A program made the translations under genes and the position numbers. The notes beneath the pieces were generated by a model that ran no database searches, was not told where the DNA came from, and worked only from the letters and a program-made list of their open reading frames with translations. DNA of 64,000 nucleotides. Source: Henckelia pumila (Eukaryota; Streptophyta; Magnoliopsida; Lamiales; Gesneriaceae). The DNA lies in the NCBI RefSeq assembly GCF_033568475.1, contig NC_133120.1:88058151-88122150 (forward strand), read 5' to 3'. The stretch's first letter is position 1, and the number at the start of each line of letters is the position of its first letter. This document shows positions 36,748-52,057 of the stretch, one piece after another.

Positions 36748-37890
36748 TTTCAGAGTTCTTGACGTCTGCTGTGTTTTTGGATGCACACTTGCTCGATATA
36801 GACTTGGCGCACTTGTACATACGTGGAACAAATAAAGCCTGTCGAAACGTGAGTCAATCCTAAAGAGACGGATTGTGTTTTTTAAAGTCATGAAATGTTT
36901 TGCATTTTCGTTTTGTGCACTTGCACACCCGATATAACTCGATCTCAACATCTTGATCCTATAAACCATCATGTATTTGTTGTGATTTGAGCACAAAATC
37001 TTTTTCGTTACAAATTGATAAGCTCTTGGTAGATAAATTTCAATATAGTAAAATTAGGCTTTGCTTTTAACACTCGTGTTTATGTTTTAGACTATTAACT
37101 ACAAGTTTGTGCGTTAATCTACCATCTTTTGACAATTACCACAAAATGGGTAGCACAAGATGCAATTTGTTTTTTTGTTAAAGTCCTCTTAGTTTCTAGG
37201 TATTGTCCAAATTAAATTAGATGTTCCAAAAGGTTAAAAATCTTGAATGTGGTAAATTAAATTTCAACACGGACGTGGGTCATGGACTCATGCCCTCCGG
37301 TTAAACCAGTAACCGAAGGACAAGATCAAACTTTCCGTTGAATGCATGATATCCCTAACAATTCATAACTACCAATTAAAAGGGAATCACATTACATAAC
37401 AAAGAACTCATCAGTTCTTGCATAAGAGAACAAGCGACGGAGATGATCATCTCAAACAAATTTACTTTTAAACCTAATAACTTGTTGAGCTATGCAGCGA
37501 GCCACTCGATTTGTTGAACGCGACAAGAACTAGTCAATGTTTCTTATTTTCTTTGATGAGATCGTGCAAGCAGGTCTGTCTATGCTGCCCTTAGGGTTGA
37601 CTACCCCAAGGGCAGATCAATGGTCCAGATTGATCTGCAAATCAAATCAATTGATCTGCACATCATCTGGGACCGTTGATACTGCCCGTTTGCTAGCATA
37701 GAATTTTCCCGTGTAAGCATTGCAATCTAATTCTAAAGAGATGCCTAAGTAGCATGGACGTCGGTGAAAAAAACATATGCTTAAGCATATTTGAATAAAC
37801 ATATAATTGGTCACCTCACTATCATCCAGAACTCATAAACTTTTAAAATAGGAATCCAAACATTTTCTTTCAAAATCATACTCAAAATCA
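36748..37890. other. Intergenic: AHASS 3' UTR and a small inverted repeat
   Basis: The 3' UTR and terminator of the AHAS subunit gene, then non-coding DNA. About 37575-37710 is a loose inverted repeat (CTATGCTGCCC, ATCAATGGTCCAGATTGATC against the complement of GATCTGCACATCATCTGGGACC and GCTAGCATAG), probably a small MITE. No gene seen. Confidence 0.45.
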
Positions 37891-37971
37891 GGGTTTTTTT
37901 ATTAAATTAATATATAATAAATAAAAATTAATAAAAATATTGCATTTTTAAAAACTTTATCAATTTAGTGT

Positions 37972-38209
37972 AATCCGGGACAGACTGTCCCGGATTTAGT
38001 TATAATATTAAAAAAAAAAACTCAGATTAAATCGAGTCCAAAAAAAATCGGCTAGACCGAAACTGCTGGTCTAGCCGATTTTTTTTTAAATAAAATGAAT
38101 AAGCTGTCTTATCGGTCATTGTGACCGATAAGACAGCACTCTGAATCCGGAGCAGCCTGCTCCGGATTCAGAGACGCGTGAATGCATTGATAAAATCAAT
38201 GCATTCACG
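37972..38209. repeat. Left-terminal hairpin series of the Mutator-like element
   Basis: Five consecutive perfect hairpins: 37972-37996 (12 bp stem, 1 nt loop), 38041-38085 (18 bp stem, 9 nt loop), 38103-38137 (16 bp stem, loop TTG), 38139-38173 (16 bp stem, loop GCC) and 38177-38209 (15 bp stem, loop AAA). They lie within the terminal inverted repeat, 80-320 bp from the outer end. Confidence 0.92.
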
Positions 38210-39821
38210 GACTTCACGGGCTTATTGATGCATGTGAGTCCCTTCACATTCCAATTATTGATGCATATATTTTGTCCGTGTATCCTCTTCCCTTTCCATT
38301 CTATTCGCTTATATATTCGAAATCCTCGATCATTTTTTTCATACTTTCTCCGTCTTTGTTAAAAGGTAACCATTTATATTTATGTTTAATTTTTAGTTTA
38401 TTGTAATAAATTTATTTTGTTATAATGTATTTATTTAGTTGTATATTTTGTTCTAATTTTTTAAAAATATTGTCAGGTTATAATTTAATTCGACGGTTGA
38501 ATTTGTCTTCGTAAGCAGTTAACAGGTAATTATTGTAATTATTTTCTTACGATTCTATTATTTGTTAATTTTGGTGAAATATAAAATTTAAAATGAATTT
38601 AATTTAGTTACAAGTTTTCTTTACGTATTTTATGCTTAGTTAAAATAGAATTTATAATTTTATTTAATTATCTTAAGTATAGAGTAATTAATTTATTTAT
38701 TTTAAAATTATAGCGACACAATTTTTTGATTTTATTTTATATAGACTATAATTGTTTTTTGTTTTGCGTGATCTCTGCAATATTATATGTAAGATATAAG
38801 ATACATTTGTGAGTTGTTAATAGTAAACTAAAAATACATAATTAAATCTATTTAAGAAAAAAATAGTATGTGAATAAAACTTCATGTATTAAAATCATTA
38901 GTAAGTATCATAGTATGTGTTGTTTTTTTTTAGTTATTTAACTTCGTAATGATTTTTTCAAAGATTATATTTTCAATTATAAAGAATAAAATGATTAATT
39001 ATTATTATATCAATTAATTAAGTAGATATATACGAATTAATTGTTTGAATTTAAGAATAAAATATATTATAATACAATTAATAATTTTGAATGTTAATAA
39101 TTATTTCGACAAAGAATTATTAAAAATAATTAAAATTTATTAAATTATAGTAAAAATTTAAATATTATATTATTTATTACATTTTTACTAATTTTAATTT
39201 CCTAACCCAAAGAATAACTAAAATATATAAAAATTTTAAATTTGATAATAATATAACGAAATATGTATTTATTGTAATAATTATATATTTAATGTTAAAT
39301 AAAGTTAGTAACTATCACAATATTATTGTCAAAAAAACAAATATATTATAATAATCAATAATAATAAAAATAGTTGCTGGATAATAATTACAGTAACTAC
39401 AAACTTAATTATATTATAAATCTAAATTAATTATTAAATAATTTTTTGAATTTGTAAATATTTAAAATTGAAGAGTATTGTTGGAAAAAAAAAATTTGTC
39501 AAGATTTTTTTTTTTTGCTTACTTCTCTAACCTCGTTTAAATTTGAAATTAATTTATAATATTAGACAAAAATCATTAGTAGGCATGAATGTGTGTGTGT
39601 ATTTTTTTAGTAATTTAAGTGTATAATATTTTGTTAACATATTATGAGTCGAATCACAAATAATAAATATTATATTAACCTTTAATTAACATCATCAACA
39701 AAATATCATTTGCTGCTAATGAAAAATTGCATAAATGTAAAAGTTTTTATCGAATATGTCATCAGTTATATTTGGATATTAAAAGTAATTTAATTTATAT
39801 CCAGATTTTATTAATTGCAGG

Positions 39822-41124
39822 ATGACCGAAAATGTAGATAATGTGTTGTACTTGCAAGATAAACATATTTCGAATAATATCAATGCCGAGAATATGGATT
39901 CACTAATACCTCCACGTCGTTCCGATCGTTCTCTATGGGCATTGTACAGTGAAGGAATTCACCATCGTGTTCGCCTATGTTTGGCGCGCATGGGTTTTTA
40001 TGGTATCTTACAGTGTGGACCAATAAAATATTATGATCATCACTTGCTTACAGCCATGGTAGAGAGATGACATCGAGAAACCCACACGTTCCACCTTCCC
40101 GTAGGCGAGACCACGATAACCCTACAAGACGTGGCAATGATTTGGGGTTTGAACATCGATGGCATTCCCATCACTGGTGTAGATACCGCGTACACTAAAA
40201 ATGAGTTGCAGCAACGCTGTTTATATTGGTTGGGTTTCATGCCCGAGGATAATAAAATCAAAGGTGGACACCTTTCCCTCGGCGCTATACGAAAGCACTG
40301 TCTTGATCATATGATTCAGGATGACATCACAGATGACGACGTTGCAAAATATTCTCGTTGTGTGGCATTACTGATTATCGGTGGATGTATGTTTCCGGAC
40401 TCAGAAAGTTCTGCTGTAAAGCTTATGTATTTACCATTTCTTCAGGACATCGATAGAGTGAATACATATAGCTGGGGCTCGGCTGTATTGGCCTATCTTT
40501 ACCGAGAATTATGCAACACATCCATGGAGTCAAAAAGCGATCTATGTGGGCCTCTCCAAATACTTCAGGTACAATTATACTTATATAAAATTTATATATG
40601 TTTTGGTTAAATTGTTGTTATGGAAAGTGTATATTTTATATCGTTGCAGATTTGGGTGTGGTCACGGATTACACTTTTAACTGCGGATAGGGTACAACAA
40701 AGTCATCTGGCATCGGAGCAAGTTGCCGATGTGCTTCAGGGACTACCGTTCCCACCTTATGGCGCAAAGTATTCTTCATAGGCACTTAATTTTTAATATG
40801 ATTCTATTATTTATTATCAATGTCCTATATTGTCTGCTTATTCATATCATAGGTGGAAGCGTGGGTTTTCATGGGTGCACACTGTGCGTCATTCTGTTCG
40901 TGTAATGAGAGATAAGCTTGATAGGATGGTAGACGGACAGGTAATTTTTGACAACACCTATTACTATAAAAATATTTTATAAATTGTTTTAAGATAAACA
41001 TGTTAATATTTCTACTTTACTTTTTCGACAGTTTAAATGGACCGTATATGATATGGAGTCACCAGAGTTGTCTATGTACCTTGAGGGAGATAGAAATCTC
41101 CTTGTCGATCTGCATGTCCTCTGA
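39822..41124 (+). pseudogene. Plant mobile domain (PMD, MAIN-like) gene carried by the element
   Basis: Exons 39822-40568, 40650-40768, 40853-40940, 41032-41124 with GT-AG ends. Recognisable PMD motifs: RVRLCLARMGFYGIL, THTFHLPVGETTITLQDVAM, WGLNIDGIPITG, SWGSAVLAYLYRELC, QIWVWSRI. Host members (MAIN, MAIL1, MAIL2, PP7-long-form-like) act in genome stability and transposon silencing, and PMD domains are known from transposable elements. A TGA at 40067-40069 replaces what is usually Trp (MVER-stop-HRETHTFHL). The C terminus, ending DLHVL, looks shorter than usual. If the TGA is a real base this copy is dead. The gene probably served as an accessory gene of the element, by analogy to mudrB in MuDR; that is inference. 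Confidence 0.83.
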
Positions 41125-41768
41125 TAAATTTTGATATTATTGAAATGCACCGACATATAAAAATATTTATGTTCTAAAAATATTTTGTTACTGAATTCTT
41201 TTCTTTTACAATATATATTTAAGTTTAGTACAAAATTTATATTTAGATATAAGTTTACGTACAAAACCTCATTTAAATATTCACGTTGAATTATAAAATC
41301 TATATACATATTTAATAGTATACAAAGTGCATTATTTTCTATTAAAATGTATAGTTAAAATATTATTACTAAATCTTTTTTTAAAAAAATATAATTCAAA
41401 GACAATTATATGATTGCAAAATATTAACAATTAAGAGATTGCAAAATATTAGAATTAATAATAAAATTCTTATAAAGCAGATGTGCAACATAAGTAGAGT
41501 TAATATAAAACATTTGATATCCAAAGGATAAAATTTAAACAACGAAGAACTTATTTTTATGATAAATTAAAAATCTGTAGGTTGCATATCCACGTAATTA
41601 TCTCTCAAGTGTCACCTACATGTAATGAGAACAAAGAAAAATATTAGGAAATTATTGAAAAATACGAAAACAACATAAATATAAATATTATATGGTGAGG
41701 AGTGATAAAGATTACATTAGTATATCGTTGAATTAAAAGTTACATAATTTAACATTATAGATCTCATG

Positions 41769-44456
41769 TTACATCCCACGTCTCTCTCTGCCAGAAGATT
41801 GATCCATTTCATTTCTAATGCGGGTCCTACGATCTCTACCAGCTCTTCTCCTCTCTCGTCGAACTGGATTGTGCTGTAATTGGAATGTTGGTTCTTCCCA
41901 ATATTGTTCATCATGTACAGGGTAGAATCGACCATCATAAGTGTTCACATATTCGCTAAGTGTGTACCATGATTGTACAAGTTGTGAAGGATCTAGTCCA
42001 AACCATTTTTGATGCGCATATGACATGTGAACAAGGGATTCCAAATATTGTTGTCTTCCCACATGTGCAATCACGAGTAGAAATCTTAACAGCTTGTATG
42101 TGATGTTGGCTCCCCGGTCTTGCTCCTGTTGCAATGGATGCTGTCTGATCCCTTTGGTCAAATTGTACAACCCTATGTTCAATTGACTTTCTCGACCACT
42201 TCTCAAATTTTTCGCAAGCATAATCAGTCCAAGGTTGATGTTTTTCAATCATTTTTTAACTTCGGCCACGTCTTTGTATGAAATATTGCACGCATCGCTG
42301 TAAGGTCAACTCCACTATTGCGGTAATAGGGAGTCGTCGAGCTCCTTTCAACACACTATTTATACACTCAGACATATTTGTCGTCATTACCCCTCGCCTC
42401 CATCCACCATCATGAGCAAATGCCCATTTCTCTTTCGGGATTCCAGACAAATAATTGAAAGCTGCTACATTTTTTGATTTGATTGCTTCCATTGTGGCGT
42501 TGAATTTTCCTATTTGATGTTGTGTCCCTGCTTCCCAACATAAATCCTTCAGATGAATGTTTTTGAACCTGTTATTGAAATTAGAACACACGTGTCTCAA
42601 ACAAAAACGATGGACACCACAAGGAGGTCTAAAGTCAGGGAGATCTTGCACCGCACTTGTTAAACCTGCATGCCTATCAGATATATGTCACACTCCTCTA
42701 CAGCCTCGTATAACATATCGTGCAACATTACTTAAGAACCAATGCCAAGACTCGTAAGTCTCTTCATCGACCAACGCAAATGCCAGAGGTAACACTTGGT
42801 TATTAGCATCCAAAGTCACTGCAATGAGTAGTTTGTGCTTGTATTTCGTTTACAGATGTGTGCCATCTACACTGATTATTCTACGACAATGCGAGAAACC
42901 ATCTACACACGGTTTGAAGGCCCAAAATACAAAGTTCAAAACTTGGGGATGGTCGTTTGGCCGAAGATGCTTCCACTGTACAATAGTTCCTGGGTTATAA
43001 TTTGACAAAGCACCCATATATTTAGGAAGCAAAGAAACAGAGCTTTCCCATGTACCATATACGATCTCCACTGCTCGCTTCAAACTCTGCCATGCCTTAG
43101 CATACGATATATCATACCCATATTTTCCTTTGATACTCTCTCGGACATACTTGATCTCGTATGCAGGATCACAACGCACAATTCCAAAAAGTGTGCTTGC
43201 TACCATACTTACGTCAAGGTTATGGTGATCTATACCCACTTGGCTAGAAATGCATGTATGCTCCCCACCGTACTTCGTTATCATGAAAAACCCTATATTC
43301 TGTTTGAATGATGCTCGAAGTCCCCAACCACAGTTGCCACCTTCAGAAAAGTTCTTACACTTGATCTTCCATATTGTTGGAGAACTTTGGACAACAATAT
43401 ATTCACGTCTCGCAATTCGAACAGAAAAATCCTTCACAGATGCTATTAATTCGATTTTGTTCTTGAAAACCATTTTCACACAAAGTTCCGGCCTCTGAGG
43501 ATCGTAAAACTTAGTCCGAGATCTAGATGATAGCCCAAATGTATCGGGAATTTGTTCATCATAAACTGTGTTGAAAAATTGAGGAATTTCGCGCATAACA
43601 TGACCATCGCGAGGAAAATTATGTTCATGTGTTTCCCCACCATAGTTTGGGACCTGCGACGATGTGCCCTCGCCTTGACGTGTGCATTCATCAATTGGGT
43701 ATCATCTTCACGTAGTGTGTTGGCACGGTCATCGTCTTCCCCATCATTTGATGCAGCATCAAGCTCACTATCACTACTCATTACATTGCGAGAACTGTCT
43801 GCAAACGGATCATGCACCTCTGTAATATTTCCTGCGATTGTATCCAACATATTTGCTCTCCTCATATGATGATCCGAAGGCCATGGATTTAAATCCCATG
43901 ACAGTGTTTCGTTATGGACCAATCCATGATATTCTCCTGTTGGAACCATGATATGGTGATCCCAATTGCCAGCTGTATCAATTCCAGAATACAATTGCGT
44001 ACTACCGACGCCAATGTGATGTGCAGAAGTTTGTGCCTGCTCATTGAAATCTATTGTGTTCATACCTTGTGTTATCTCTGGCATGAACGACTCATGATCA
44101 CAACCTCTGACGTCGTAAGATACTGGAGATGATTCAACATACAGGTAAAAACAATGTAATAACGGCGAATCAAACATGAATTGCAGACTATCATCATCTG
44201 TGATGTACACATGCTCTTCGATATGACGAGACATCACTTCATAAGAATATTTTGTTGACAGTTTAATACTGAATTGCGGTGGGTCAATTTGTAGGAGACA
44301 ATGCACTTCATCCAACAACTGAGAAAATGTAATAGAACGTGGGATTTTTGCGGGCCTAGTTGCTGGTATGCTATACCCGACCCTCTCATTGTGGACAACG
44401 ACACAACCACCTATATAGAGCAATGCACTCACGACATCCATTTCTGTATTTAACAA
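41769..44456 (-). pseudogene. MURA-type Mutator transposase, several lesions
   Basis: Reading from 44456 down: an N-terminal region common in plant MULE transposases (VVSALLYIGGCVVVHNERVG, YSYEVMSRHIEEHVYITDD), an acidic stretch, a MuDR DNA-binding-type domain (FKNKIELIASVKDFSVRIAR, CKNFSEGGNCGWGLRASF), the catalytic DDE-type region (RRIISVDGTHL, ISDRHAGL, FCLRHVCSNFNNRFK, NMSECINSVLKGARRLPI) and a SWIM zinc finger (CTCGKTTIFGIPCSHVICA). A basic tail (RRERRRAGRDRRTRIRNEMD) ends at 41769. Lesions: frameshifts near 43640, 42250 and 42015, TAA at 42850-42852 right after VDGTHL, and TGA at 42688-42690. The transposase is dead in this copy. Confidence 0.88.
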
Positions 44457-45432
44457 AAAATATATAATATCAGCATCCTTAAAACATATATGCTACTACT
44501 GCTATTATTACTAATATTAGAAAGTAATTATCATAATTATTTTGCTATAAATTGTATTATTGGTTGATTAATTTTCTTCGGATTCAGACTTCATTTTTTT
44601 ATTTTTTTGGACAGAAACCGTTCTGAAGACAAACTCAGGAAATAAAATACTAACCTCAATAGAGTAGGTATGATATTAAATCCAAATTCAACGAATTGGG
44701 CAAAAACCTGACAAAAAATTGAAATGTATAATCACAAGTCACACTTAAAAAATAAAATAAATTAATTTGCAAAAAATATGCTAATACAATAATTAAAAGT
44801 TACACGTAAGTGAATTAGAGACAATAATATACAAAATACAATTTTATTAAAAAAACAAATAAACAAGAGCTTTCAAATTTAAAATAGACTACAGAAGTAC
44901 AAAAAGAGCAACACAAAAATTGACAAATTTTTAGTTTCCTATAATACTCTACAATTTTAAATAGTTATAAATTGAACAATATTTAATTGTGATTGATAAT
45001 ATAACTAATTTAATAGTTACTTTAATTATTATTAACCATATTTTAATTATTATTTATAATTATAATATATTATTTATTTAACAAAATAATTGTCATCGTT
45101 ACTAAATTTTACTAAACTTTATTTAACATTAAAATTAATATTCAAAATATTATTACTATTTTAATTATTACTATAACTACATATTTATATTACTATTAAA
45201 TTTAATTATTTTCTATACTTTAATTAATCTTTTAGTTATTTTTTGGGGTTGGGAAATTAAAATTAGTGAAAACTTAATAATTAATATAATATTCTAGTTT
45301 TTACGATTATTTCTATCTAATAGATTTATTACGCTAATCTACTTCTAGTTTCCCTTGGGTGGTATTATGATAAAATATAGACAATAGATTTAAGTACAAC
45401 AATAAATTATGATTAATCTATGTATTTAATAA

Positions 45433-48400
45433 GAGCAACTCTCCTGTGAGACTGTCTCACGTGTGACAGGTTAACCCAAAACAAAAACGGGTAATTCCCC
45501 GGTAGATTGGATCCATATCTAATCGGCTTTTCTTATCCCATTTGTCGCCTAAATTGCCCTAATCCCTCGCATATGAAGATCGACAGAAACCATGGCAGAT
45601 TCTTGTTCCATCTCGAATCGATGGTTCGAACTGAGAAGCTTGACGGCAAGGAACGAAGATTAATAAGGTGAAAGTCACAATTTCTTACTCTTTTTAAAAT
45701 CTGAAATCGATGGGTTTAATGAAAAATTGATTATTTTTGCGTCTAACTCATGTCTTAAATCCATCGCCTACTTTTGATTCTCAGCTACCTCCACAGCCGT
45801 GTAATTCACTGAAGTGCTCGATGGGTCGGGTCTCACAGCCATTGTTACAGGTTCTTTTCTTCTTCTTTCTCAGTATTTTGTGTACTTTGGATGGTGGGAT
45901 TTTAATTCTCGTGGTTATGCTATGTTGCGTTGATGATCAAAGTTTTAGTTTCCAATGCCGGGATATTCTTAATATTGTTGTTATGCATAAGAATCTTTTG
46001 AGTTTGGTACTAGAAAACTTGTTAAAGGTTGAAGCCAGCTAGTTGCAAGTGGATTCAGAAGTAGCAAAGTTTCTTGTGTGTCAATCCGTAAATATGTTTG
46101 AGCTGTGGCATTTCTACTTTAATGTAATTGTTCTTCGAATGATAAGTGAAAATATCAGGTAGGAATTTTAATTAGAAAATAGTTTCTCAATGATTCAAGG
46201 ATTTGTAGTCTGTTTGTTTCCCATTGTCCATACACATGATTTTTGTTTGATGTGTATACATGATATTGATGGCTAAATTAATCATGTGTTGTTCAGACTT
46301 GTGTGTGAATTCCTATTCTAGAAAGGGTTGTGGAACTCAGATCCATCAAATCGGTAATCGTCGCAAGACTCGCAACAATCATTTTCATTTGTCTTCGCTT
46401 TGAAAGAGAATTTGTGAAGGAAAGAAATTTCAAGAGTTCTAGTTATTACAGATTGAAGAAGACATAGACGTAATTCAAGACATAAAAAAAGTATTTTCGG
46501 CGACCACTCAAAGTCGACCATCTCATACCATTCAATGTTGAGATTGGTAGAGGTAAGGAGAAAAGGAGGGGATGGCACGGAATATCATGAAGATTTCTGT
46601 ATGCGTGAATTGAAGCCGGGATTACAAAGCCTTATGCTTGGAAATGTATCTGATTCTTCTTACTTGCCCTCAGATACAGAATAGATAAGGGAGTGGACTA
46701 ATTTTCTTTTTCCTCTCTTTAACATTATGTTGTTTTTTTCCTTTGTCTACTTTCCTTAGTTCACCTCTATACCTGTTAGCTTATTGGATCATATCTTTCT
46801 TATGTATTGTTGTTTGATTTTTCCTTTTCTTTTTTGTGCTAAGCAGGTCCTGTTAAACTCTTTAGAAGATTAATATACCCTCTGTATCAGTTTCTTGATG
46901 AATATTATATGATCGATCGTATAAAGTAAATAAATTAGTAGTTCATGGTTTCTTGGCCGTATATTCCCATTCAACATTGATGGAGGGCTGGATATGTGTT
47001 GTAATAACTCAACATTGGTTTGACCAAATGGTTTGTTTTTTTTGCCATTGAAACTGGCAGCAACTCGTGCATTAGAAGCAAGAGAACTTGGAAGCAACTG
47101 CGGTAACATTTGGTTTGGATCACTAGCAAGAGAACTTGGAAGTTGATTCTGGGGGTTTGCAAAGTTAAAAATTGAATTAATTCTTAATTTGTGACTTACT
47201 ATGGAAATACTAACTCCGTTACGTTCTATTAATATTTATAATCAGAATGATTGCATTTAAAATAAAGTATTATTTTTTCTGTTGAAAGTATTACTTTTTC
47301 GATTTAAAATATTAGTTTTTCTGTTAAAAGTATTACTTCTAAAATATGTTAATTTGAAATAAAATGTATTAATTTTTTTGTAAAAAATATTATTTTTTTA
47401 ATAAAAAGTATTATTTTTTATAATAAAATTTTTATTTCTATAGTATGTTAATTTGATATAAAAAGTATTATATATTTTTTTTGTAAAAAGTACTATTAAA
47501 GGTATAACCTCTAATGTACATAAAAAATATTTTTTTTTAGAAGTATTGGTTTTGCTGTGAAAAGTATTATTTTTTATAATAAAAGTATTAATTTTTATGA
47601 TAAAATTATTTTTTTTTCTAACAAAAATACTAACATTTTTTACTTAAAAACTAATACATTTAACTTTAAAAAGTAATATTCAATATCATTTATCATAAAA
47701 CGTTAGAAAAAATATTTTTGATAGAAAATTAATATTTTTTTTAAAATAGAAAATTAATACTTCACAGTATGCTAAGTATTATATATTATATTTATGTGAA
47801 ACGTATTATTTTTTTAATCAAGTGTAAGTATTATATATTATATTTCTGTGAAACATATTACTTTTTTAATCAAATGTATTAGTTATTCAGTTAAAAACAT
47901 TACTTTTAACATATGTTAAATTTTTCATAAAAGTTATTATTTTTATTAAAAAATATTACTTTTTTTATGAAAACTAATACTTTTTTTTATAAAAGTATTA
48001 CTTCTAATATATATTAATTTGATATAAAAATATTACTTTTTATGGAAAAATATTATTTTTTTGGTTAAAATATTATTATTATTTAAAAAAAATACAAACT
48101 TCTAATATAGTAACATATGATAATGACATATAAAATATTATTTTTTTATAAAAAGTATTACTTTTTATGTTAAAAATATCAATGTTTATGATAAAAATAT
48201 TAATTTACGATATGCAAATGAATTCTTTCTAAAACAACTTTAAGAGTCAAGCCACAAGAAAGCCGCAATTTAAATCAATTTTCATCATGTTTTGATACAT
48301 TCATTTTACTGAAAATGAGGACATTGTTTCTCATTTCCTCTGTATGATAAACTTCCATCAATTCAACGGCATAGACAAAACATGTAAAGAAACTGAATTT

Positions 48401-50368
48401 GAGAACTAAATTGTACGACTGTAAAATGATGATATAAAACCAAAACAATGAATTTTTCCTCAAGTAGAAGTAACATTAATAACAAAGGCTAGCAAAAAAA
48501 CTATGGTGACTTGTGACACATCAAATTTCTGGATCCCATTCCAATCGGTAGAAGCATACCAGTCCAAATCGGTAGACTTCACATCAGTGTATCATGGAGC
48601 AAGTATTGTCTCCTTTCAGCAGCCTGGTTCTTTGAGAGAGAGTTAGAATGTGGCCTGAAAGAAAAAAAATGTCTCTCTTCCAGTCGAAACCTTTCTTGCA
48701 CATTAGAAATGTATCTGGCCGCCGCTTCATCCTCCTCCGCACCCAATCCCTGGAAATTCTCTAGCCTGCCACCTCTGTTGGGCACCACGTATGCCACCTT
48801 GTGCGGTTTCTGCTGGGAGTAAACCTACTGCAGCTGCTTCAAGATAACCAAGTCCTTGTTCATCTTTTCTGGGGGCTGTACAGAAGTCAATCAATAGATT
48901 CCTGGGAATTCTAGTGGCATATCCAAGATCTTCGGGAACCCAAGCTTCTCTCACTCTGCCTCGGTTTTACAGAGATACTTTCGCTTTAGGTGGAAGATTA
49001 TCAAGGTAAGAATTCATGATAACTCGAGCCCATATACAACAAAAACCCTGGACGAAAAGGCACACACAATTAATATGGAACTCTGAGAATAAAAAGGAAG
49101 AACAAGGGATCAAATCTTACTTCAAGGCCACAAAAATCAAGAAGAAGGTAGCACTGCCCGGAACACAACTTTTTCTAGTTACGTACTTCGAAAGAGGTCA
49201 AGTCAAATCCATGAAAATCTTATCTAAATTAAATTGACATGAAAAAGCAAATGCAAGGAACACAACTTATTTCTGGACAATGCAAGCTATTAGTAAATCA
49301 CAGTGTTTTGAATTCTTACAGAACCGAGGAGCAGAACACCGAAGCTAGGCAAAAGTTACATCCTCTAAACATGCCCATGAGCAATCTACAACAGCTAAGC
49401 CTATCCTTTTAATCAGCTCCAGATCTTCTCGAGAAACACATTGTTTCTCAGTCGGGATGAAACAAGGTGATATAAACATTAACCAAAACAATCATGCGCT
49501 TTTGCTGGTGCAACATATGTCAAGATATATGGCAGCAAATTTCAAACGAAATCAATATTCTGGTCATCCTTTCCCCCATATTCATGTCCGAAATTAAACG
49601 TTCAGAACTCAATGACGTCAATCTACAGGACCAAAAGTAAATAGAAATATGAAACTCCTTTATGATTGATGCAAATCATCAAAACTCAATCTCATCAATG
49701 TACAGGAACTAAATTCCATAACTACTATATTATGAGATATTAAACATTCAAACACTAGAAAAACAAGTGCTGAAGAATAAACCAAGAAGAAAACACACAT
49801 TTTTCTCCAAGTGTTTAAATATTAATCCTTTAGACATGATAAAGTACAAAGAAAATATATTTGACGATATCTTGATCTTTCGAAATTCAAGACAATAGCT
49901 AGAGTATGACCACAAGACAAAAAATTAACTGAAAGAAAACACCAACGAACAAGAACACACACTAGTTCAAAATTCATATCCAACCAAGTAAACTTTAGCG
50001 CCAGAATTTGTGAAATATTACCTGTTGCTAAACCGAGACACAATTGATTGTGGCATTGACAAATTGATTTACGATTTTTCGATTTCAGATTTTCAAAAAA
50101 AGGAACCTAGATATTTACTCTTCCTTCTTCAATGTAGCAGAGATCTTCTCAGTGGATGACAACGATCTTCATTCTTCAATGTAGCCAGAGATTTCTCGAG
50201 CTTGTTTTTCGAGATGGTTGGAAGCGATCGAAAGCGATCGAGAAGCTGGGAACAAGCGGTTGAGGACGCGAAGATCCATTGAATCTCACGGGTTAAAAAA
50301 ATGGGTTAATCTTACCCGATCCGTCGCACGAACATGACCCATACAACAGTCTCATACAAGTGTTTGTC
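45433..50368. mobile_element. Nested Mutator-type element carrying gene-like fragments
   Basis: A 4,936 bp element flanked by an exact 9 bp duplication, ATTTAATAA, at 45424-45432 and 50369-50377. The ends are inverted but diverged: GAGCAACTCTCCTGTGAGAC on the left, complement of the right end GACAAACACTTGTATGAGAC. No transposase is seen. Near both ends lie richer, gene-like segments: on the plus strand a 23-codon frame at 45592-45663 (MADSCSISNRWF) and a spliced-looking exon near 45784-45850; on the minus strand MDLRVLNRLFPASRSLSIAS from 50279 and a frame at 48954-48727 (AWVPEDLGYATRIPRNLLID). I do not recognise these proteins. This fits a Pack-MULE that captured host fragments. Confidence 0.7.
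47190..48230. repeat. AT-rich array of near-palindromic AAAAGTATTACTTTT units
   Basis: About 1 kb with dozens of degenerate copies of AAAAGTATTA and TATTACTTTT spaced 15-25 bp apart, often TTAAAAGTATTACTTTT. Each unit is almost its own complement. It is the interior filler of the nested element; no coding sequence. Confidence 0.75.
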
Positions 50369-50769
50369 ATTTAATAAATACAATATGTAATAAATATTTT
50401 TCTAATTTCAACATTTATCACAAAAAAATACGGTCAACTAAAAGTATCCCCATAAATATAGCGCAATAAAAATAAGTTAATTGTTCTTATATTCACATAC
50501 TTAATTAATTTTCTAATTACAAAAATAACAACAATTAAATAACAATTAATTATATTCACTGTGAATAATTAATTTATGACCGTGATAATAACAATAACAA
50601 TATTACATCAATACGAATAATAATAATAAATAATATTATAAATATTATAATTAATTAAATTAATGATGAATAGAAAAATCATGTTGATATTTATAATAAT
50701 GTTAATGGATATAATACTAAATTATATGTAATGACTTGATGATGACAACAACAACAAACAACGATCACC

Positions 50770-50808
<39 letters not shown>
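50770..50808 (+). repeat. (TAA)n microsatellite
   Basis: About 12-13 uninterrupted TAA units in the right arm of the Mutator-like element. Confidence 0.9.
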
Positions 50809-50812
<4 letters not shown>

Positions 50813-51374
50813 TAATAAAAACAATAAATTATATTCATCATGAACATTTAATTGATGATCGTGATAATAATAATAACAATATTACCTTTCAACCGCATGT
50901 GAAATTAAGATAAACCGACAAATTGATAATTTGAAAAATATTACAAATCATTATCAGAATCATAATAAACAAATAAATATATACATCAAATAAAAAAACA
51001 ATACTTATAATTTACCTTTTAAAACTAAGAAAGTGATATGAATCTGGCAGTATACATAAATAAATTTAGGATGTCCGAGCGATCTTGGATTTTTTTATAC
51101 AATACACAACTTCATTTTTGTTTTGACACGAACAAAACGTTACGGATCTCGATTTTTTTTCCCAAACAAAAACTTCACAATATATTTTTTTTAGAGACAC
51201 TGGAGATATAGAGTTTTTTTTTAAAACAAAGAGACAGAAGTTATGAAACTTAAACTTGAATGCAAATAATTTTCACAGCCTTACTCACATATATATACAC
51301 ACACACGTGAAAGCTAGGCCGCAAATTACGGATGCACAGTAGCAGCTAAGCCTGCAAATTGGTGCACAGTTCTG

Positions 51375-51618
51375 AATCCGGACCAGTCAGGTCCGGATTT
51401 AAAAATGTCTTTGACTGGTCAAACCTTAACCAGTCAAATTTTGACTAGATTCCCTTTTTTTTTTAAATATAAAATCGGCTGGACCGCCGCATGGTCCAGC
51501 CGATTTTTGAAGCAACCACACTTTAAAAAAACAAAACAAAAAGAAAAGAAATCCGGGACTCTCTGTCCCGGATTTAGCAGATATTTGCAGCTGCTAAATC
51601 CGGGACAGAGAGTCCCGG
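51375..51618. repeat. Right-terminal hairpin series of the Mutator-like element
   Basis: Counterparts of the left series in mirror order: 51375-51399 (10 bp stem, 5 nt loop), 51410-51438 (10 bp stem, 9 nt loop), 51471-51507 (15 bp stem, 7 nt loop) and 51553-51618 (28 bp perfect stem, 10 nt loop). The last contains two inverted copies of the CCGGGAC/GTCCCGG hairpin that is single on the left. Confidence 0.92.
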
Positions 51619-51701
51619 AATATTATAAATCCATAAATGTTTTTAAAACGCGATATTTTTTGTTATTTTTTTTTAAAATATATTATTTAGAAAAAAAACC
51701 C

Positions 51702-52057
51702 CTCAAAGTCACACCAATTCTCTTCCCAAATATTTCATTCCCTTGATTATTATTATTTTTTTACAATAGCACATTCTTCCCGTAATTTTCAAATATCACA
51801 TTTGTAACAATAAATGATAGTTTTTTATTTTAAATTCAGTTTATTGATTACGGAAAGTTCTGTATAATTAAAATTCCGAATATGTTTATGTAATTTCAAA
51901 TTAAAATAAATAAACTGACTTTTTTAAATTGTATAAAATAAAATGACTTTAATCATTTGATTTAAAATTAAAATTAAAAGGTGATGAATTTAGTCCCAGC
52001 AGCTTGAAATTAACAGAAAATTTCCAAAGCTCAGAGGCCCAAAGTTCCGCGTCGGCA
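51702..52057 (+). promoter_or_regulatory. Short promoter region of RPL2 next to the Mutator-like element
   Basis: Only about 350 bp separates the end of the element from the RPL2 start codon. The stretch is AT-rich and contains the target-duplication copy at 51702-51711. No distinct motif stands out, but the RPL2 promoter must lie here or extend into the element. Confidence 0.45.

Follow-up and report, generated by a model that had tools for sequence, protein, structure and literature searches.

The 64,000-nt stretch of Henckelia pumila DNA analyzed here (the window; contig NC_133120.1, positions 88,058,151 to 88,122,150) contains a Mutator-like element (MULE) in which a gene for a plant mobile domain (PMD) protein faces a MURA-type transposase gene between long, hairpin-studded inverted ends. 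We are nearly certain of this anatomy, and of the copy being dead. In window coordinates, the terminal inverted repeat (TIR) starts with GGGTTTTTTT at 37891 and finishes with AAACCC at 51701. Adjoining the left terminus is a 10-bp target duplication copy, CTCAAAATCA (37881-37890), which its right counterpart, CTCAAAGTCA (51702-51711), matches at 9 of 10 positions; neither copy is assigned a strand. The left end (37891-38209, + strand) comprises the GGGTTTTTTT terminus and five hairpins (37972-37996, 38040-38086, 38103-38137, 38139-38173 and 38177-38209), and the right end (51371-51701, − strand) comprises the terminus and four hairpins (51552-51619, 51471-51507, 51410-51438 and 51375-51399). 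The two ends align with a score of 215, compared to 121.5-150.5 for 15 two-base-block shuffles.

Much of this could be read against a second copy, L031 (contig C3), which is 98.4 and 98.7% identical to the window in the two longest aligned blocks. Because its flanking DNA differs from that of the window and it has its own duplication, TCAATCAAG, L031 is an independent insertion. The inverted similarity of the window ends recurs in patches out to about 1.6 kb; the two ends of a MULE can already differ when it inserts. The inner arms of this long degenerate inverted repeat, at 39142-39519 (+ strand) and 44871-45312 (− strand), align with a score of 261 compared to 119.5-142.5 for two-base-block shuffles. 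We rejected the idea that these arms delimit another PMD-MURA element inside the first: they sit symmetrically in L031, 1.2-1.7 kb from each end, and therefore belong to the long ends. We likewise rejected the reading of the whole 13.8-kb span (37891-51701) as a single element, since 45433-50368 is missing from L031. Without this nested insertion, the PMD-MULE is about 8.9 kb long.

The PMD gene reads rightwards, and its open piece at 40071-40610 matches the PMD model (Pfam PF10536, E 9e-38). In L031 the gene has five exons, separated by four introns that are all GT-AG, and encodes a 624-aa protein; the four-exon gene of an initial annotation, made from the window sequence alone, is thus replaced by a five-exon structure of which the window retains exons 1-3 and part of exon 4. 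All are on the + strand. Relative to L031, exon 1 (39822-40568) has acquired one in-frame stop; exons 2 (40650-40768) and 3 (40853-40940) were mapped from L031; and exon 4 (41032-41153), of which about 122 bp are kept, has a 1-bp deletion inside and breaks off at 41153/41154, where about 0.92 kb has been deleted. Exon 5 is kept in 14 of the 16 copies with PMD in family A, to which the window element belongs, the two without it being the window and L044.

The MURA gene (41769-44441, − strand, its extent mapped from L031) reads leftwards in the window as pieces, one with a SWIM match, and carries three stops and two frameshifting insertions relative to L031. The L031 transposase is a 906-codon frame, measured stop to stop, with a MULE domain (PF10551, E 7e-17; 8e-18 in L051, a family B copy), and L031 is apparently intact. 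For SWIM, L051 scores 26.9 bits, the window piece 23.7 and L031 18.5, the last just below the cut-off of 19.6. A search of solved structures with PMD and MURA gave no match.

The initial annotation had described inverted ends rich in hairpins, a 10-bp duplication with one mismatch, and convergent PMD and MURA genes in a single, dead element, and each of these features is present at the locus. Its limits for the element, 37891 to 51701, hold as far as the ends are concerned; 4936 bp inside them belong to another transposon.

We searched the 885-Mb genome (133 contigs) for relatives. The left end gave at least 100 matches, with some places giving several pieces (40 of 142 first-look candidates scored), while PMD and MURA gave at least 150 and at least 138 rows, part of the candidates being scored in each. 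Of the 138 MURA rows listed (one place contributes two pieces), 107 lie within 25 kb of a PMD match, in convergent order for 106 and divergent for 1, and 100 have a convergent PMD within 10 kb. On the four large contigs we observed 94 such pairs within 10 kb, compared to a mean of 0.5 and a maximum of 4 over 200 trials of random placement, and we therefore rejected the possibility that the two genes are chance neighbors. Unpaired among the rows listed are 31 MURA and 46 PMD, some of the latter being second pieces of a paired PMD gene.

From 20 regions, three of which proved to be continuations, we assembled a sample of 17 family A loci. Both genes are present in 15, convergent in every case, and both ends were found in 11. 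Nine copies, representing eight insertions, have both ends and both genes (L031, L032, L033, L035, L037, L039, L040, L043 and L044). All 11 two-ended family A elements have perfect 9-10-bp duplications, allowing the ends to slide by up to 12 bases; taking families A and B together, the same is true of all 13 elements with both ends other than the window (11 A, 2 B; slide of up to 15 bases). For L034, L042, L045, L046, L049 and L050, the fetched stretch did not show both ends complete. L032 and L033 (C3:140.70 and 140.81 Mb), which lie about 112 kb apart, have a common target duplication, CTAATAAGCT, and so are probably one insertion inside a duplicated genomic segment.

Family B consists of two 7.04-kb elements, L051 and L052, whose transposase piece is 63% identical and which have the same GGGTTTTTTT ends and perfect duplications. 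PMD and MURA are convergent in L051, which was read whole, and the PMD and MURA matches in L052 are also convergent. The sibling copies with both termini that the initial annotation proposed to look for thus exist, and in them genes and ends occur together, rather than the two genes lying in separate elements or the two ends never meeting. We conclude that this is a real, amplified MULE family, of which the window holds a dead copy.

The other two of the 11 two-ended family A elements, L047 and L048 (4.3 and 5.5 kb), have both ends and perfect duplications and no PMD or MURA match; they are non-autonomous. At C1:109.15-109.17 Mb, three similar left-end matches (L007-L009) lie about 6.65 kb apart, in what looks like a tandem array of partial elements.

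Most of the ends examined are strongly hairpin-rich and carry family-specific motifs. When 22 ends were folded as DNA, 20 had z scores of −6.3 or lower against 30 shuffles each, the others being the right end of L039 (−0.8) and the left end of L047 (−3.0). We also scanned 55 ends for hairpins, many of them from places represented more than once. Family A ends have as many as five, their stems 10-37 bp long, and two ends have none; in family B, stems reach 60 bp, and the hairpins are unrelated in sequence to those of family A. The repeated end motifs sit in palindromes. In five family A elements, the outer 900 bp hold 4-8 copies of AATCCGG and the interior 0-1; in two family B elements, the ends hold 10-11 copies of GC[AG]TCCGC and the interior none. 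Another motif, ATCGG, is less exclusive to ends and is missing from those of L043. As the motifs were chosen by eye from the hairpins, these counts describe restriction to the ends rather than independent discovery. We do not claim hairpin-rich ends as new among MULEs.

We then counted paired changes in two hairpins, using nine distinct, hand-chosen sequences for each; a TCGGCT hairpin was compared by eye only. Changes on both sides were present in 3 of 16 pairs in the first hairpin and 4 of 19 in the second, counts reached by 4 and 16 of 500 shuffles, respectively, that ignore relatedness. This is weak evidence for compensatory change. Arm-to-arm copying during replication or repair, rather than selection for structure or a paired binding site, could produce the same pattern, and we give it close to an even chance. 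The 60-bp stem of one family B end contains a single mismatch, as expected of a newly copied arm; all three paired changes in the first hairpin come from one sequence, L043; and the excess over shuffles is modest among sequences that are related. Copying accounts less readily for the second hairpin, where the paired changes are spread over four sequences, and for the fact that hairpins reappear at comparable positions in the two ends and also, although unrelated in sequence, in family B.

We estimated omega of both genes for 66 non-independent pairs from 12 family A copies, leaving out L032, L033, L035 and the window. Most copies are dead, and because insertions relative to L031 were dropped, dN can be inflated by codons that are out of frame. 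PMD has a median omega of 0.36 and MURA one of 0.35. At dS values of 0.15 or more, omega ranges from 0.19 to 0.40 for PMD and from 0.23 to 0.43 for MURA, compared to 0.40-1.90 and 0.26-1.24 in young pairs (dS under 0.1). The dS values of the two genes correlate at 0.95 over the same pairs and copies. These values indicate that selection maintains the two genes from one element lineage to the next and that they decay once a copy has inserted, a pattern that fits two transposon genes both needed for propagation.

Between L031 and the window, omega is 0.59 for PMD exon 1 and 4.65 (1.20-7.26) for MURA (41769-44441); nearly all of the 17 MURA differences change an amino acid, which is odd for a neutrally decaying pair. 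When L031 is paired with L032 and L033, PMD exon 1 gives an omega of about 1 and MURA one of 1.0-1.4. The dS of PMD exon 1 differs from that of exon 4 in L043 and L050 (0.33 and 0.22, measured against L031), suggestive of recombination between copies.

We placed the PMD proteins in a quick tree of 71 rows: L031, L051 and 69 others chosen among the 120 that were listed from 299 matches. The tree search was short, long branches that meet are flagged, and the family B PMD is represented by only about its first 310 residues. The rows do not include Arabidopsis MAIN, MAIL1 and MAIL2, and host-type rows were recognized by length, name and position. Families A and B fall inside one 39-row clade (support 99), together with rows from Primulina, Sesamum, Erythranthe, Phlomoides and Paulownia. 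In contrast to these, the long host-type PMD proteins, one of them from Henckelia (P0038), stand apart, with about 34-40% identity to the MULE-encoded PMDs (MULE-PMDs). The genes of clade members in other species may also be transposon genes. A C-terminal CGTGGH-type motif occurs in 16 rows, all within this clade; many models are truncated, so its absence elsewhere means little. As the A and B branches each contain both Henckelia and Primulina rows, the split between A and B is older than the divergence of these genera, barring movement of elements from one genus to the other. Among the proteins that group with the MULE-PMDs are some from Henckelia and Primulina named 'serine/threonine-protein phosphatase 7 long form homolog'.

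Several MULE-PMD proteins also resemble DUF1985. DUF1985 is one of two domains of VANC (PMC5735166), a protein that binds short motifs of its own transposon family and causes methylation loss (PMC5735166, PMC10398659). In the window exon piece, the stretch that matches PMD is also matched by Pfam DUF1985 (25.0 bits, E 2e-5), and the L031 PMD scores 20.3 bits. In six of ten relatives scanned, DUF1985 matches score 12-33.8 bits, two of them at E 1.3e-6 and 3.9e-8. Comparing a profile of 52 PMD proteins with one of 14 DUF1985 stretches, hand-chosen from 150 matches in the H. pumila genome, hhalign returned 82.6% (E 1e-5, 75 columns), compared to at most 3.1% for 60 column shuffles, 0.1% for the reversed control and 0.3-0.5% for MURA. 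Two sequences, L066 (C2:16832977) and L067 (C1:126663908), match both models, with 42 and 40 bits for DUF1985, above its cut-off, and 27 and 24.5 bits for PMD, and are possible intermediates between the families. Adding them raised the hhalign value to 95.5% over 111 columns. PMD and DUF1985 are thus probably remote homologs, a relationship that leans on the bridging sequences. The literature we searched, mostly without subscription papers, gave no link between PMD and DUF1985, no link between PMD and VANC, and no selection test on a MULE-PMD; the passages of PMC7156037 relevant to purifying selection concern host genes.

Given the probable homology to DUF1985 and the motif binding and demethylation by VANC, we favor, at about even probability, a VANC-like role in which the MULE-PMD would act as an anti-silencing factor on the element's ends. 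Produced from one end of the element, the PMD protein would come back to the subterminal arrays of hairpins and motifs in elements of its own family and strip them of silencing marks; the ends, which by analogy with MuDR are presumably promoters, would stay active, and MURA could act. Use of the PMD against host control, one of the roles raised by the initial annotation, becomes likelier through the selection on PMD and its link to DUF1985. The regular convergent pairing with MURA, the copies with both ends and both genes, and the family-specific motifs confined to the ends also speak for this role. Several observations weigh against this interpretation. No PMD protein reaches the DUF1985 cut-off of 35.1 bits (maximum 33.8), four of the ten relatives scanned have no DUF1985 match (P0002 and P0016, transposon-type; P0038 and P0049, host-type), and family B exon 1 has none at E 0.01. 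Taken alone, transposon-type PMDs give 61% and host-type PMDs 1.6-1.9% in hhalign, reaching 93% and 86% only with the bridges. The targets of VANC21 are tandem arrays in the same orientation, whereas the motifs here sit in palindromes; the host PMD proteins MAIN and MAIL1 promote silencing; and the hairpins could serve MURA instead.

A serious rival, although we consider it unlikely, is that the PMD is an accessory transposition factor like mudrB, operating alongside MURA at the ends, for instance as a palindrome-binding protein or during integration. The regular pairing of the genes, the similar selection on both and the placement of hairpin arrays where transposition acts all agree with such a factor, as does the apparent requirement of mudrB for integration (PMC6446971), while the remote homology points toward VANC. 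The PMD might instead be a decoy or dominant-negative of a MAIL2/MAIN/MAIL1-type host protein or its PP7L partner, globally disabling that silencing pathway. As MAIN and MAIL1 are Brassicaceae-specific paralogs of MAIL2 (PMC7156037), the host partner in H. pumila would be a MAIL2-type protein. MULE-PMDs and host PMD proteins have this domain in common, and a counter-silencing use of PMDs encoded by transposable elements has been proposed (PMC8616336). We nevertheless regard a decoy as improbable: nothing in the present analysis favors it, and the MULE-PMDs diverge from the host-type clade in both position and identity. MULEs do acquire host gene fragments (PMC6446971), so the PMD could be a functionless passenger captured from the host; purifying selection on PMD like that on MURA contradicts this, and families A and B each have relatives in Primulina as well as Henckelia, making it the least credible explanation by far.

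A wider scheme, which we put forward as doubtful, would make PMD and DUF1985/VANC two branches of a single superfamily of anti-silencing proteins carried by transposons. In such a scheme, MULE-PMDs would recognize their own end palindromes, and host MAIN/MAIL proteins would be domesticated members whose effect on silencing has been reversed.

Maize MuDR (mudrA/mudrB) also has two convergent genes between long TIRs; the second gene here is instead a PMD gene. By its architecture, the H. pumila family is a MUDR-type MULE. With the MUDR-clade MULEs (group 50; PMC6446971) it has in common 9-10-bp duplications, inverted ends, a SWIM transposase and an antisense PMD, which Dupeyron et al. (2019; PMC6446971) give as "in antisense for most" of the clade; the initial annotation had been unable to name this architecture, which is already on record. 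The table for that clade lists TIRs of 30-320 bp, whereas here the inverted patches extend over about 1.6 kb, with most ends consisting of hairpin arrays. What we add to the published antisense PMD is the purifying selection on it, the hairpin-rich ends with family-specific motifs and the probable PMD-DUF1985 homology.

MULE-encoded PMD-C proteins from grasses and Amborella, for which an anti-silencing use has been suggested (Ikeda et al. 2017, PMC5418596), likewise join PMD with a MULE transposase, but as fusion proteins, whereas here there are two separate convergent genes; counter-silencing by transposon-encoded PMDs is also proposed in PMC8616336. Eudicots are said to contain mainly genic PMD-C (PMC7156037), and H. 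pumila, a eudicot, holds many transposon-borne PMDs, counted here simply as PMD. VANDAL21/Hiun with VANC (PMC5735166, PMC10398659) resembles the present family in being a MULE with a second gene, in its family-specific noncoding motifs and in the DUF1985 of VANC, of which the PMD here is probably a remote homolog. It differs in that the PMD here scores below the DUF1985 cut-off, and in that VANDALs have degenerate TIRs and tandem motifs in one orientation, whereas terminal inverted repeats are present here and the motifs lie in palindromes. Anti-silencing has been shown for VANC only.

The nested transposon (45433-50368; 4936 bp, no strand assigned), delimited by alignment with L031, is foreign to the PMD-MULE. 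It is flanked by 9-bp target duplication copies (45424-45432, ATTTAATAA, and 50369-50377, both unstranded) that stand once in L031, from which the insertion is absent, and it has short, imperfect, inverted ends. Its first 468 bases have 99-100% matches at three other places in the genome, one spanning 457, which suggests recent activity. Within it are ten AGTATTAY motifs (array 47266-48161), every one on the + strand, compared to 0.27 expected; the opposite strand has none, and none of 500 shuffles reaches ten. This is reminiscent of the VANC21 target YAGTATTAY, which also forms arrays in a single orientation, but the preceding base is A, not Y, in all ten.

The name 'serine/threonine-protein phosphatase 7 long form homolog' can hide transposon genes in Henckelia and probably in Primulina. 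The reason for PMD genes in MULEs has so far been speculative. With an apparently intact copy, its numerous siblings, the signs of selection and the probable homology to a domain of VANC, the role of the PMD becomes directly testable.

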